A stretch of DNA of 64,000 nt, taken from NCBI GenBank assembly GCA_003388555.1, contig QQVD01000006.1, forward strand, positions 124,001-188,000, read 5' to 3'. Numbering within the stretch: position 1 is the first letter of the stretch; the number at the start of each line of letters is the position of its first letter. The translations under genes were made by a program, and so were the position numbers. Positions 15,391-21,055 of this stretch are shown here, in pieces. The notes under the pieces are model-generated. The model saw only the letters and a list, made by a program, of their open reading frames with translations, did no database searches and was not told the origin of the DNA. Origin of the DNA: Acidobacteriota bacterium. Lineage in GTDB: Bacteria; Acidobacteriota; Thermoanaerobaculia; Multivoradales; Multivoraceae.

Positions 15391-18195
15391 TCAGGGCAGC
15401 TCGGAGGACGTGAGGGAGAGGCCCGACGCCACCGGCGCAGGAACCCTGTCCGGGAGCGTGACGGCGCCGTAGGCATCGAGACCCTGCGCCGGGCTCCAGA
15501 CGTAGACCTGCACCGCGCCGGGCGTTCCCTCGCGCGAGGCATCCCAGCTCGCCTGGAAGGACTCGCTGCCCACCTCCCGGACCTCGTCGCGCAGCGTCAC
15601 GCCCTGCCGATCGAGCCAACGCACCCTGGCCGAACCCTCGAACCGCTCGAAGGGGAGGTCGACCGCGACGGCCACCGCGTCCGCCGTGTCCGCCGCACCA
15701 TCCTCTGCCGCCACCGGGCGCAGCTCCAGTCGCTGCTGCGGCAACGCCAGGGGGATCGCCGGGTCACCGAGCAGGTTGTAGGTCTCGATCAGGTCGCGGC
15801 CGCGGATCTCCTGCTTGGCGCGCAGGATGGCGGTTCCGATCGGCATGCCCGGCCGGGTGAGCCATTCGACCAGCGCCTCGCTGTAGCGCTGCGAAGGTGA
15901 GTTGCGCCACGACGCCGCGAAGACGGCAACGGCCCCGCGGTCGGGCGTGCGCAGGAACTTCTCGCCGATCGAATCGGCGTCGGGGTGGTCGAAGGGCGCC
16001 GAGAAGCAGGTCATCGAGAGGACCACCGGCAGCCGTCCGGTCGGCTCGAGCTCGTCGATGTGCTCCGGCGTGAACAGATCGTGATTCTTGTGGATGTCGG
16101 GAGGCCCGGTGCGCCAGATGAAGCGACCCCCGTGGCCGAGGAAGTGCACCAGCAGCTTGCCGTCGTCGAGCTCTGCCTGCAGCCGGGCCTGGTGCAGCGC
16201 GTTGTCTCCCTCCTCCGGCTGCGGATAGACCTTCGCCGGGGCCAGCCCTTCGGCGAGCAGATCGTCGGCGAGGCGGTCGGTGCGGGTCTGGAAGTGACGC
16301 TGTTCGTTGGTGATCCACAGCACGTCGGCCCGCCACGGCCCGACCTCGGGCGCCTCGGCGTAGGCGATCGTCTTCTTGACCACCGCCGCGACCTCCTCGG
16401 GATCGACGAGCGGCAGGCGACCGATCGCCAGGTCGGGCAGGAGGTCGTCGCCGAGCACCGAGACGAAGTAGTTGTCGCTGGCCGCGTGCCCCTGCGAAGA
16501 GGCATACATCGCGGTGGGGATCAGGTTGCGGTGGGCGACGCCGCCGAGGTGGGTGTAGCGCGGGGCCTGCTGGAACGAGAACTCGCCGTCGCGGGGATTG
16601 AACTCGCGGTCGGCGTAGTTCGCGTAGCGACGGTCGTCGGGCACTTCGCTCTTCACGTCCCAGCTGGCATCGCCGACCAGCAACACGAAGCGGGGCGCCG
16701 GCTGACGCCATTCGAGCTGGGTGTGGCGGACGAAGTCCCGGATCGCCTCCAGGCTGACGATCCCGTGCGAGAACTCGTCGTAGACGTCCTGGACGTCGAT
16801 CAGCTCGACCTCGAGGCCGCGACCCTGGTGAAACTCGGCCAGCGGGCGCACGGCGTCGAGCAGCCGCGGGTGCGAGATCATCAGATAGTCCGCCCGTTGG
16901 CGGGAATCGCGCAGCCGCGACGGCCGGTCGGCCTCGACCGCCGCCACCCGACCGTAGGCGCCGTCGGCGACCAGATGCGCCGCGCGACCCGAGAGTCGCA
17001 GCGCCTCCTCGGCGGCGAGCAGCAGCGGCGCGCCGGGGCGAGCGATGCGCCGCCGACCATCGGCCAGGAACAGCTCCAGCGCGCCGCCGGGGCCGATCTC
17101 GATGGCCAGGGGTCCATGGTCGCGATCCTGCCCCGACGCGTCGAGGAAGACCCTCTTCTGCGTCGACGCGTCGAGCTCCGGCCGCACAGCGTACGAGGCC
17201 TCGATCCAGTTCACCATCACGACGTCGACGATCGGATCGTCCAGGCCGCGCGGAACCCGCGACGGCACGACGAGCTGCAAGGCGGTCGGTCCGATCGGCA
17301 GCGCCGCGGGGTCGAGAGAGATCTCGAGGATGCGCGGGACGGCGCCGTTCCAGCTCGCCGCTCCGACCGTAGCGCCGTCGACGACGACCTCGACCCGATG
17401 GCCCGGGAGGTCGCCGAGGAGCGGCGTCGCGGTCTGGTTCAGGGCTCGCAGGCCGATGCGCAGGTCGAGGGGGCGGCGGCTCTCGGGGTCGCGGTCGGAG
17501 AGATCGAGCGACACCTCGGAACGTTGGGTGCCGCGGTGGGTGAGCTTCTCCCAGAACCACAGATCCGACCCCCAGCCGCCCGTCATCTGGCGCTCGCTGA
17601 GCCGGATCATCATGTTGTCCTCCTCCAGGTGGAGGGAGCGCACCAGCTCGATCGGGGCTCGTAGCCCGGTCCCCGGCCGCGCGGCCGAGTCGGGCCCGCC
17701 TCGGGGCGCGCGCTCGGAGGGCGGCGCGAGGCTCTCCACCGTCGTCCCCAGCCAGCCGTCGTCGGCACGCAGGGACAGCCAGTAGACGTTGTGCTCCGCG
17801 ATGTCGTGGTGGTGGCGCCCGTCCTGCCCGAGCTGCTCGCCGACGAAGAGCAGCGAGTCGCCGGGACCGAACCGGCCGTCGCCACCCGAGTCGTCGACCC
17901 AGAAGGGCACCGCGTGGCCCTGGTTGCGCAGCGCCAGGTCACGGTGTCGGGGAGGGTCGAGCCCCGGCGCGGCGCGCACGATGTCCTCCCAGCCCAGGCG
18001 CAGCACGCCAGCCTCTTCGGTGAGGATGCGGAACTCGGCCGGGCTCCGCGCCGCTGCGGCTGCGGCGACACTGACCGACCACAGGGCGAGGGCGCACACC
18101 AGCGACGTCGCCATCGCCCGCGTCCGCCCGAAGCCGACCGGCGGGCGGCCCGCCGGGCAGCGGCGCCGCCCCTGCGCGTGGTTCTTCCTGGTCAT
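15391..18195 (-). CDS. Exported gingipain-type (peptidase C25) protein
   Basis: A 934-residue exported cysteine-protease-like protein. A hydrophobic segment (residues 28-50, MATSLVCALALWSV...) is the signal sequence; translation could also begin at Met28. Residues about 60-430 are the beta-rich N-terminal part. The C25 domain follows (residues about 480-800): VLLVGDASWDVK, NYFVSVLGDDLLPDLAIGRLP, then catalytic His688 in HFLGHGG and Cys730 in LSMTCFSAPF. A segment resembling RGRDLIETYNLLGDPAIPL ends the domain. The last 120 residues are a beta-type tail. It sits in an operon with the HTH-citrate synthase and a MaoC protein. The His-Cys spacing (42) is wider than in gingipains. Confidence 0.82.
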   Translation of the reverse strand: MTRKNHAQGRRRCPAGRPPVGFGRTRAMATSLVCALALWSVSVAAAAAARSPAEFRILTEEAGVLRLGWEDIVRAAPGLDPPRHRDLALRNQGHAVPFWVDDSGGDGRFGPGDSLLFVGEQLGQDGRHHHDIAEHNVYWLSLRADDGWLGTTVESLAPPSERAPRGGPDSAARPGTGLRAPIELVRSLHLEEDNMMIRLSERQMTGGWGSDLWFWEKLTHRGTQRSEVSLDLSDRDPESRRPLDLRIGLRALNQTATPLLGDLPGHRVEVVVDGATVGAASWNGAVPRILEISLDPAALPIGPTALQLVVPSRVPRGLDDPIVDVVMVNWIEASYAVRPELDASTQKRVFLDASGQDRDHGPLAIEIGPGGALELFLADGRRRIARPGAPLLLAAEEALRLSGRAAHLVADGAYGRVAAVEADRPSRLRDSRQRADYLMISHPRLLDAVRPLAEFHQGRGLEVELIDVQDVYDEFSHGIVSLEAIRDFVRHTQLEWRQPAPRFVLLVGDASWDVKSEVPDDRRYANYADREFNPRDGEFSFQQAPRYTHLGGVAHRNLIPTAMYASSQGHAASDNYFVSVLGDDLLPDLAIGRLPLVDPEEVAAVVKKTIAYAEAPEVGPWRADVLWITNEQRHFQTRTDRLADDLLAEGLAPAKVYPQPEEGDNALHQARLQAELDDGKLLVHFLGHGGRFIWRTGPPDIHKNHDLFTPEHIDELEPTGRLPVVLSMTCFSAPFDHPDADSIGEKFLRTPDRGAVAVFAASWRNSPSQRYSEALVEWLTRPGMPIGTAILRAKQEIRGRDLIETYNLLGDPAIPLALPQQRLELRPVAAEDGAADTADAVAVAVDLPFERFEGSARVRWLDRQGVTLRDEVREVGSESFQASWDASREGTPGAVQVYVWSPAQGLDAYGAVTLPDRVPAPVASGLSLTSSELP

Positions 18196-18206
18196 CACGG
18201 ACGGCG

Positions 18207-18212
18207 AGTCTA
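18207..18212 (-). promoter_or_regulatory. -10-like TAGACT box upstream of the C25 gene
   Basis: Read leftward, TAGACT is 11 nt before the ATG at 18195 and overlaps the citrate synthase stop. It would give a short leader of about 4 nt. This supports the start at 18195 and suggests internal promoter activity within the operon. Positional inference. Confidence 0.3.
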
Positions 18213-19619
18213 TCGCCGCGTCGACGAGGCGTCCGGGAGGTCGACGCTGCCGGCAGGGCCGGACGGCGGCGGCCCCACGTAGCGCGCCCGCGGTCGGATC
18301 AGGCGGTCGCGACGCACCTCCTCGAGGAAGTGCGCCATCCAGCCGATCGAGCGGCCGAGGGCGAACAGGGTCCAGGCAGTCCCCGGCCGCGCCTCGAGGG
18401 CGCGAGCCACGATCGCGAGGCCGAGATCGATGGTCGGCGGCTCGCCCATCAGGTCCGCTCCCTCCTCGACCAGCGCGTCGATCGACCTCCAGAAGGCAGG
18501 TCCGATGCCAGAGGTCGAGCGCAGCACTTCGACCAGCGCGACGAAACGGGGATCGCCGCTCGGATGCAGGGGGTGGGCGAAGAAGCCCGGCACCGTCTCC
18601 CCGCGCTGCAGCCGGGCGGCGAGCGCCCGGCGCACCTGGTCGCGCACGGCACCTTCGCCGGCGGGTACCCGCTGGCGAGGCGACGGCACCGCGATCTCGG
18701 CCAGCAGCGCCTCGCAACGGTCGCTCAGACCGCCATGGCGGCTGCCTCGCAGCGCCGAGATGCCCGCCACCGCACCGTCGTAGGGTGAGGATCCGGCCGA
18801 GGCGACGCAGCGGACGACGAACGACGAGACGTTGAGCTCGTGATCGGCGCAGAGGACCAGGGCCGCGCGGATCGCCGGGCGCAGTTCTCTGCGGCCCGGC
18901 GCCCAGGCCCGCTGCAGCACGCGATCGAACGGCATCGAAGTCGGCCGGGTGATCCCGCTCGCCGCGCGGGAGAGGACCTGCACGACCCTCGCTGCGCAGC
19001 GCGTCATCCGCTCCACCCTGCGGTCGGCAGCGGCGAGGTCCTCGGCCGCTGCGAGCGCAGCCACCGTTTGCAGGAGCACCCCCGGATGCGGCTCCTCGAG
19101 CGTCTCTAGCACGCGGCGCCACTGCGGCGGCAGCGGATCCAGCGAGCGGTCGAAGAGGTCCGTTCCGCAGCCCGCGGCGGCAGCCGTGGGGCTGGTCGAC
19201 GCATCGCGGACGGCACCCGGCGCGCCGGGCTCGGCCGCTTCCGCAGCGGCCTGCCAGAGGTGAGCCGCGACCTCCTCGAGAGTGCGCTCGCGGGCGAGGC
19301 CCAGCAGGGAGACGCCACGCACCCAGATCTCTCCGTCGTCGATCGCGGTGAGCTCGCTGTCGAGCACCGGCGCCCCCCAGTCGAGTGCCGAGCGCGCCGC
19401 CTGCGAGGGATTCCGGGCCGAGCGGCTGCGGCGGCGGAGGCGCTGCAGGTCACGACGACTGTAGAGCCGACGCCGGGTGCCGTGCTGAGGCCGCGACTCG
19501 ATCAGCTCGCGGCTGACGTAGGCGTACAGGGTGCTGCGACGCACCCCGAGCAGCCGCGCCGCCTCGTCGCTGGTGAGCCACTCTCCCGCCACCGCTCCTC
19601 CGCTCGTCGCAGCGCGCAC
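18210..19619 (-). CDS. Citrate synthase-like protein with N-terminal helix-turn-helix
   Basis: A 469-residue protein. Residues about 14-60 are a MerR/excisionase-type HTH (WLTSDEAARLLGVRRSTLYAYV, then RRRLYSRRDLQRLRR). The rest is a citrate synthase fold: small N-terminal domain from about residue 85 (LDSELTAIDDGEIWVRG), then the catalytic core with His295 in GSRHGG, His349 in FFAHPLHPSGDPRF and Asp398 in PPTIDLGLA. All three catalytic positions are retained, so it may bind or process oxaloacetate/acetyl-CoA. Known proteins of this type are annotated as citrate synthase family; their function is not established. ATG at 19619 begins just ahead of the HTH. The gene is divergent from a second citrate synthase across a perfect palindrome and leads an operon with C25 and MaoC genes. 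Confidence 0.85.
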   Translation of the reverse strand: MRAATSGGAVAGEWLTSDEAARLLGVRRSTLYAYVSRELIESRPQHGTRRRLYSRRDLQRLRRRSRSARNPSQAARSALDWGAPVLDSELTAIDDGEIWVRGVSLLGLARERTLEEVAAHLWQAAAEAAEPGAPGAVRDASTSPTAAAAGCGTDLFDRSLDPLPPQWRRVLETLEEPHPGVLLQTVAALAAAEDLAAADRRVERMTRCAARVVQVLSRAASGITRPTSMPFDRVLQRAWAPGRRELRPAIRAALVLCADHELNVSSFVVRCVASAGSSPYDGAVAGISALRGSRHGGLSDRCEALLAEIAVPSPRQRVPAGEGAVRDQVRRALAARLQRGETVPGFFAHPLHPSGDPRFVALVEVLRSTSGIGPAFWRSIDALVEEGADLMGEPPTIDLGLAIVARALEARPGTAWTLFALGRSIGWMAHFLEEVRRDRLIRPRARYVGPPPSGPAGSVDLPDASSTRR

Positions 19620-19674
19620 CGCCGAGACCGGCTCCGGTCGACAGCCGACAGGCGGTGCCCGATCGCACTCATCG

Positions 19675-19700
19675 GTTGATCAGTTGATCGATCGATCAAC
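19675..19700. promoter_or_regulatory. Palindromic operator between divergent citrate synthase genes
   Basis: GTTGATCGATCGATCAAC at 19683-19700 is a perfect 18-bp palindrome. A further half site GTTGATC lies at 19675-19681 and an ATTGATTGTACA stretch follows. It is in the 245-bp intergenic region between the HTH-citrate synthase and the second citrate synthase, the only AT-leaning patch there. A symmetrical site next to a gene for a DNA-binding protein is a classical autoregulatory operator arrangement. The assignment to the HTH protein is inference. Confidence 0.55.
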
Positions 19701-19864
19701 ATTGATTGTACACGCTGCGGGGTTCACTCTCTCCTCACGACGGCCGGCAGATCAGACCGGTTCGGAGCACGGCACGAGCTCTCCTTCCGGCTGTCCGGCG
19801 CCGCCGCATCGAACCCTGAGACCCGGAGCTGGATCCGGATCTCGGCCGCAGAGGAGCGAACCAC

Positions 19865-21055
19865 ATGTCCCTGAACGACAACCCATCCTCCCCCTCGCAG
19901 CCGCCAACCGAACGAGCCACGGCGAAGACCGTACCGCTGCGACCGAGCGCCTCCGGTCTCGATGACGTCGTCGCCGCCGACACCGCACTCAGCGCCGTCG
20001 ACGGCGAGGCGGGTGAGCTGCTCATCGCCGGCTACCCGGTCGACGAGATCGCGCCTTCGGCCAGCTTCGAGCAGACGGTGCACCTGCTGTTGCACGGACG
20101 CCCTCCCGAGGCAGCCGAGGAGGCGGAGCGGGTCCGGGCACGCCTGGCGGACCTTCGCGAGCTGCCCGACTGGTCGCTCGAGGTGCTCGCCGCGGCGCCC
20201 CGCGACACCCCCTCGGTCGAGCTCGTGGCGGCGCTGATCGCGACGCTGGAACGCGACGCCGAACCCGAGCGCCTGGTCTGCCAGCTGACGACGATCGTCG
20301 CCGCCGCGGCCCGGCACCGTGCCGGCGACTCGCCGCTCCAGCCCCGCGTCGACCTCGGACACTCGGCGAACTTCCTCTACATGCTCTCGGGAAGCGAGCC
20401 CACTGCCGCGCGGGTGCGCGCCCTCGACACCTACTGGAACACCGTGGTCGACCACGGCCTCAACGCGTCGACCTTCACGGTGCGCATCGTCGCATCGACC
20501 GGGAGCGATCGTGTCGCCGCGCTGCTCGCCGGCCTCGGCGCACTCCAGGGACCGCTGCACGGCGGCGCACCGGGCGGAGTGCTCGATCTGCTCGACGAGC
20601 TCGACGGTGAGCGGGATCTGCACGCCGCGCTGCGCGCCAAGCTCGATCGTGGCGAGCGGTTGATGGGCTTTGGCCACCGCATCTACCGCACCCGCGATCC
20701 CCGCGCCGACGTCCTGCGCGGCGCCACCGAGCGCCTGCGCCGACTCGAGGGCTCGGACGGCGATCTGTTCGACTTCGCCGGCAGGGTCGAGCAGGCCGCG
20801 CTCGAGCTGCTGCGCGAGCGCTGGCCGCAGCGGGTGCTCGACACCAACGTCGAGTTCTACACCGCGTTGCTGCTGCGCGGCCTCGGCCTCGAGGCAAACC
20901 TGTTCACGGCGATGTTCGCTGCCGGCCGCTGCGCCGGCTGGATGGCGCACTTCGCCGAGCAGCAGGAGGTCGGCCGGCTGGTGAGGCCGCAGAGCCGCTT
21001 CTGCGGTGAGCGCCGGCACTGGTGCTCGACGGAGCCAACTCCGGTCGTGCACTGA
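19865..21055 (+). CDS. Citrate synthase (bacterial type)
   Basis: A 396-residue citrate synthase, condensing acetyl-CoA with oxaloacetate, or a close 2-methylcitrate relative. Catalytic His232 (GPLHGGAPGG) and His271 (GFGHRIYRTRDPRA) are present. The third catalytic position is Glu330 (TNVEFYTALL) where E. coli CS has Asp362; other citrate synthase branches (for example mycobacterial CitA) carry Glu here. Spacing of the three residues matches E. coli. The N-terminal 25 residues are polar and unconserved. ATG at 19865 is chosen because the small N-terminal domain (LIAGYPVDEIAP) follows at normal distance. Divergent from the HTH-citrate synthase and probably under the same palindrome. Confidence 0.9.
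   Translation: MSLNDNPSSPSQPPTERATAKTVPLRPSASGLDDVVAADTALSAVDGEAGELLIAGYPVDEIAPSASFEQTVHLLLHGRPPEAAEEAERVRARLADLRELPDWSLEVLAAAPRDTPSVELVAALIATLERDAEPERLVCQLTTIVAAAARHRAGDSPLQPRVDLGHSANFLYMLSGSEPTAARVRALDTYWNTVVDHGLNASTFTVRIVASTGSDRVAALLAGLGALQGPLHGGAPGGVLDLLDELDGERDLHAALRAKLDRGERLMGFGHRIYRTRDPRADVLRGATERLRRLEGSDGDLFDFAGRVEQAALELLRERWPQRVLDTNVEFYTALLLRGLGLEANLFTAMFAAGRCAGWMAHFAEQQEVGRLVRPQSRFCGERRHWCSTEPTPVVH

Follow-up and report, generated by a model that had tools for sequence, protein, structure and literature searches.

A citrate synthase-fold protein with a MerR-type DNA-binding domain as a predicted metabolite-sensing repressor, and the conserved operator beside its gene

A number of transcription factors sense their ligand through an enzyme fold joined to a DNA-binding domain, good examples being GabR/MocR (aminotransferase fold), NrtR (Nudix fold) and BirA; we know of none among these that uses the citrate synthase (CS) fold. 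In Bacillus subtilis, the gene for CitA (citrate synthase I) lies divergent from that for the LysR-type regulator CitR, while in propionate metabolism the PrpR protein of the Salmonella type is a sigma-54-dependent activator; a comparative study of propionate regulation by Suvorova, Ravcheev and Gelfand (J Bacteriol, 2012) is said to have proposed new prp regulators in proteobacteria. In Streptomyces coelicolor, sco5831 and sco5832 (citA3/citA4) are adjacent genes for putative citrate synthases that share an intergenic regulatory region, a probe of which is bound by MtrA (PMC12323332).

Here, we describe a locus from an Acidobacteriota bacterium, contained in a 64,000-nucleotide stretch of contig QQVD01000006.1 (the window), that resembles each of these systems in part. 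Like GabR/MocR, NrtR and BirA, the protein at its centre, referred to here as HTH-CS, joins a DNA-binding domain to an enzyme fold as the putative ligand sensor, and like the MerR family it carries an N-terminal MerR/HTH_17 winged helix, but here the sensor has the CS fold. As with CitA and CitR of B. subtilis, a CitA-type CS gene is accompanied by its own divergent regulator gene, although CitR is of the LysR type whereas the predicted regulator here is itself built on a CS fold. In four pseudomonadotal loci, relatives of HTH-CS are divergent from prpB-prpC, a position in which a prp regulator is commonly found, but they are proteins of another kind than Salmonella-type PrpR. The likeness to sco5831/sco5832, compared by description only, is that of an adjacent CS-type pair, which in S. 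coelicolor is treated as two enzymes (PMC12323332). A full-text literature search, outside whose coverage most subscription papers fall, returned no description of the HTH-CS family.

The HTH-CS gene (18210-19619, minus strand) has a GTG start and encodes 469 aa, with a winged helix at about residues 14-69 and a CS fold at about 70-460. A preliminary description of this DNA had recognized the protein as a MerR/excisionase-type domain joined to a CS core, and Pfam bears this out, the N-terminus matching HTH_17 (E 3.7e-09, 37.2 bits against a cut-off of 27) and MerR_1 (E 7e-07, 29.7 bits against a cut-off of 21.6), and the remainder matching Citrate_synt (PF00285) over the whole domain (E 4.4e-47, 161.3 bits, profile positions 3-357 of 357). 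An AlphaFold2 model built with 28 sequences (pLDDT 87, pTM 0.82) places a helix-helix-wing domain in front of the CS fold, an arrangement in which we have high confidence at the level of the model, and a structure search with it retrieved citrate synthases up to a Z score of 37.5 (1a59); as the HTH did not dominate these matches, no structural family is claimed for it from that search. The HTH residues are conserved among the relatives of the protein. A large open reading frame on the same strand (15391-18200) adjoins the gene and looks by eye like a gingipain-type (C25) peptidase.

The partner gene (19865-21055, plus strand; 396 aa) is divergent from HTH-CS, at the coordinates given in the preliminary description, but the two genes lie back to back and do not face each other as was written there. 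Its product had been called an ordinary citrate synthase: it is a CS (Pfam Citrate_synt, E 1.1e-101) but one of the accessory CitA type, scoring 365 bits against PRK12350 (NF009005), above the NCBIfam cut-off of 332, with B. subtilis CitA (2c6x) as its closest relative in the PDB. Its substrate residues are invariant in 61 partner proteins, and Glu330 occupies the position of the catalytic Asp. We considered whether this Glu marks an inactivated enzyme and rejected the idea, as the same residue is found in B. subtilis CitA (2c6x) and in an M. tuberculosis CitA chain, and is invariant in the 61 partners. The genome holds one further CS gene, of canonical type I, on another contig, and the HTH-CS/CS pair is therefore accessory; the earlier suggestion that the pair controls citrate synthesis as a whole thus finds no support, the predicted target here being an accessory CS.

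Between the two genes lies the 18-bp perfect palindrome GTTGATCGATCGATCAAC, at exactly the position first reported (19683-19700). No other perfect palindrome in the window is as long, the next having 16 bp, and at up to three mismatches the sequence has one match in the window (0.03 expected) and none elsewhere in the 6.8-Mb genome. The intergenic region has four TTGAT half-sites (19676-19680, 19684-19688, 19695-19699, inverted, and 19702-19706), of which the palindrome holds two.

The significance of this arrangement emerged from relatives. Using the HTH-CS protein as query against genome contigs, we obtained 80 loci from Acidobacteriota, Chloroflexota, Rubrobacter, Gemmatimonadota, Myxococcota, Pseudomonadota and others, in most of which a CS gene is divergent from HTH-CS. 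Their intergenic regions share a motif of three half-sites, GTCAAT-N-TTGATT-N4-AATCAA, found within three mismatches in 74 of the 79 loci whose HTH region is intact, whereas a search of equal length in gene bodies gave 1/79 at that level; elsewhere in 774 kb there was one weak (three-mismatch) match. Orthologous pairs lacking any palindrome, which the preliminary description had named as counting against its proposal, were looked for, and the site proved to be present in all 62 CS-paired loci. It is absent directly beside HTH-CS in 11 loci, in eight of which it lies farther up, beside the CS promoter, with inserted sequence between. In eight loci from Chloroflexota (L024, L033, L046, L050, L053, L061, L065 and L068), extra sequence separates CS from HTH-CS, with the operator beside the CS promoter, and some snippets of this sequence resemble a MutS-type ATPase by eye. 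Among distant relatives (A1 scores below about 100 bits; loci such as L081, L121, L201 and L202), a recognizable operator is often missing.

Read against this consensus, the last three half-sites of the window form the predicted operator (19684-19706, minus strand; ATCAAT-G-TTGATC-GATC-GATCAA), a GC-richer version with three mismatches. The palindrome corresponds to operator half-sites 2 and 3, and the extra half site pointed out at the start is half-site 1. The fourth TTGAT (19676-19680, plus strand) is specific to this locus and stands outside the consensus, the corresponding flank not being kept as a half-site in other loci. With a degenerate operator pattern at up to two mismatches, the 6.8-Mb genome has no match besides the window site.

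Because the motif had been learned from the first set of loci, other genomes were searched for further loci using a profile restricted to the HTH region. This gave matches in 8/297 genomes of the window's own phylum, and in the phyla of a betaproteobacterial MAG, of Rubrobacter and of an Anaerolineales MAG it gave matches in 53/398, 30/296 and 18/201 genomes, respectively. At 58 loci that had played no part in motif derivation, some from genomes close to those of the first set, so that the phylogenetic independence of the two sets is incomplete, the first two half-sites were present in 50 (against 1/455 control windows) and the full operator in 47 (against 0/455). The spacer from TTGAT to ATCAA measured six bases in 14 loci, seven in 28 and three in five. 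Exact scans of whole genomes found the seven-base form as a single match, at the HTH-CS locus, in 10/10 genomes, with no matches to a reversed control pattern, and the six-base form likewise in 8/9, the exception (G304) having two. Counting the window's own genome, 19 of the 20 genomes scanned have a single match; because these matches are single and lie at the HTH-CS locus, HTH-CS looks like a one-site local regulator. One match with a five-base spacer (L226, in G627) adjoins LysR-like and epimerase-like reading frames, as judged by eye, with no visible link. The three-base spacer occurs in some large actinobacterial genomes (L158, L161 and L162; for example GTCAATATTGATTGAATCAAT) and suggests that the DNA-binding heads are arranged differently in that clade. 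In L185 and L186, a related but different site, GCAATATTGATCTATAAAATCAACAT, perhaps a diverged operator, lies close to HTH-CS, which in L185 has a neighbour of the TctC type.

The divergent partner is not always a CS. A census of 101 further loci, including the 58 above, gave a CS in 62 (operator in 59), a family III CoA transferase in six (operator in all six), a relative of the HMGL-like homocitrate/isopropylmalate synthases in five, counting L089 (operator in all five), a methylisocitrate lyase in four (operator in all four) and a TctC protein in two (operator in one). The divergent neighbour in Roseomonas (L091) is a DUF2332 protein, and an operator with a seven-base spacer is present there. 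As the site persists with CoA transferase, homocitrate synthase-like or prp partners, the operator is tied to the HTH-CS gene and not to CS. The four methylisocitrate lyase loci, all from Pseudomonadota (L207-L210), run on into prpC, giving prpB-prpC in 4/4, with acnD shown in two, and their HTH-CS is likely an alternative regulator of the methylcitrate cycle. One of the regulators of the 2012 propionate study may belong to the HTH-CS family, and the novelty of the prp-linked branch is uncertain.

On this comparative evidence, it is very probable that HTH-CS acts on the intergenic site as a transcription factor, and we infer that it is most likely a local repressor and autorepressor which senses oxaloacetate, citrate or methylcitrate through its CS-derived pocket. 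In alignments to solved structures, with residue roles that we take to be those of the pig enzyme, His260, Arg358, Arg423 and Arg444 fall at oxaloacetate-binding positions, and His295, His349 and Asp398, named as catalytic in the preliminary description, indeed align with the His/His/Asp of citrate synthases. All of 157 family members have His260 and Arg358, and the others are kept in 155 (His295), 154 (Asp398, the other three having Glu), 155 (Arg423), 148 (Arg444) and 149 (His349). The near invariance of the first six of these residues, His349 left aside, points to a ligand of the oxaloacetate/citrate type, in keeping with one half of the original proposal of substrate sensing; its other half, acetyl-CoA, finds no support, as the position equivalent to pig Arg324, a CoA contact, is Pro in 135/157 members (Pro353 in the window protein) and always Lys or Arg in partner CS. 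The identity of the partners, enzymes making or breaking citrate, methylcitrate or similar acids, points the same way with regard to a carboxylate ligand.

The same residues bear on the possibility that HTH-CS is a trigger enzyme, a functional second CS as well as a regulator, that turns over oxaloacetate and an acyl-CoA and thereby signals flux. This would add catalysis to the local-repressor explanation, with which it is compatible, and it draws on the catalytic positions being mostly kept, all three of them in the window protein. Against it stand the frequent Pro at the CoA-contact position and the loss of His349 in 8/157 members, five of them in loci that retain both a CS partner and the operator, and among the eight those of L018, L064 and L074, with operator and partner in place. 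Catalysis, which the preliminary description had implied to be retained, is thus not supported in that form, and we consider a trigger enzyme rather unlikely; the residue pattern is what would be expected if selection acted on the binding of a carboxylate ligand and less strongly on catalysis.

How the predicted repressor would act is suggested by the placement of the operator with respect to promoters. On the CS side, a TATAAT-like box lies exactly 17 bp after the TTGAC(A) of half-site 1, matching at four or more of six positions in 30/63 loci, whereas the other spacings between 5 and 44 give such a box in 0-9 loci, and many loci combine a near-consensus TTGACA with this optimal spacing. On the HTH-CS side, 23 loci have leaders of 60 nt or longer, and in 12 of these a -10 box is found 17 bp from half-site 2 (TTGATT), a place where TATA-like repeats at the operator edge score as well. 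The window has weak -10 boxes, CACTCT (19725-19730, plus strand), 17 bp from half-site 1, and ACCGAT, so the promoter reading here rests on the relatives: half-site 1, TTGATT (19702-19707, plus strand), is the predicted -35 of the CS promoter by alignment to 62 loci, and half-site 2, TTGATC (19694-19699, minus strand), that of the HTH-CS promoter from the -10 spacing of relatives. The operator thus appears to supply the CS promoter with its -35 element, and probably the HTH-CS promoter too, and since half-sites 1 and 2 are the predicted -35 elements of divergent promoters, a protein bound there would cover both -35 regions, as expected of a local autorepressor.

The explanation that we favour, at a probability of roughly 0.78, is that HTH-CS is a local CS-fold transcription factor that binds the three half-sites containing the -35 elements of both divergent promoters and represses the neighbouring CitA-type CS gene together with its own. 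It would be switched by a di- or tricarboxylate in the former active site, in this locus oxaloacetate or citrate and in the relatives beside prp operons probably a 2-methylcitrate-related ligand, most likely by way of the change from open to closed form that citrate synthases are known to undergo. Activators are common in the MerR family, and HTH-CS could instead use the same operator to activate the CS promoter, in a MerR-like manner or as a class II activator; the site covers the -35 of that promoter and the DNA just upstream of it, where a class-II-like activator would overlap as well. However, MerR-family operators lie in the 19-20 bp that separate -35 from -10, and activation there works by distorting the DNA, whereas the operator here lies over the -35 elements and the -10 of the CS promoter is 17 bp from the -35 half-site, such that a near-consensus promoter of this kind should need no activation, and the regulator's own predicted promoter is covered by this site as well. 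Activation is accordingly a doubtful prospect in our view, and repression is the more probable sign of regulation.

That the site belongs to another regulator, for example of the MtrA/GlnR type in Streptomyces, with HTH-CS a neighbouring enzyme bearing a vestigial HTH, could appeal to the binding of MtrA to the sco5831-sco5832 probe (PMC12323332). We think this very improbable, given that the operator stays with the HTH-CS gene in different phyla and beside different partner genes, that the HTH residues are conserved and that a single site in nearly all genomes tested would be unexpected for a global regulator. Regulators and partner CSs form separate deep clades (support 100 and 98), and their divergence is correlated (r = 0.80, 0/999 permutations), with shared species history explaining part of this correlation. 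A mixed oligomer of HTH-CS and CS, by which the HTH would bring an enzyme complex to DNA, could invoke that correlation and the dimeric or hexameric state of citrate synthases, but is hardly credible for proteins of separate clades in a family that keeps the same operator beside non-CS neighbours.

Beyond the repressor proposed for this locus, we lean, with some reserve, towards a multi-phylum family of transcription factors in which the CS active site has become a ligand pocket and domain closure on an oxaloacetate/citrate-type acid moves the DNA-binding heads, with one near-universal operator and with members that would control CS, the methylcitrate cycle, homocitrate/citramalate-type enzymes or CoA transferases. 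Central carbon metabolism is entered at oxaloacetate, citrate and methylcitrate, for which we know of few direct sensors; a regulator built from the very enzyme that joins oxaloacetate to an acyl-CoA would, if this is true, provide a direct read-out of that branch point. The short and highly conserved operator makes the proposal testable at once and lends itself to use in biosensors. Many proteins now annotated as 'citrate synthase' or 'citrate synthase family protein' would then be regulators, and metabolic models that count them as enzymes would be distorted.
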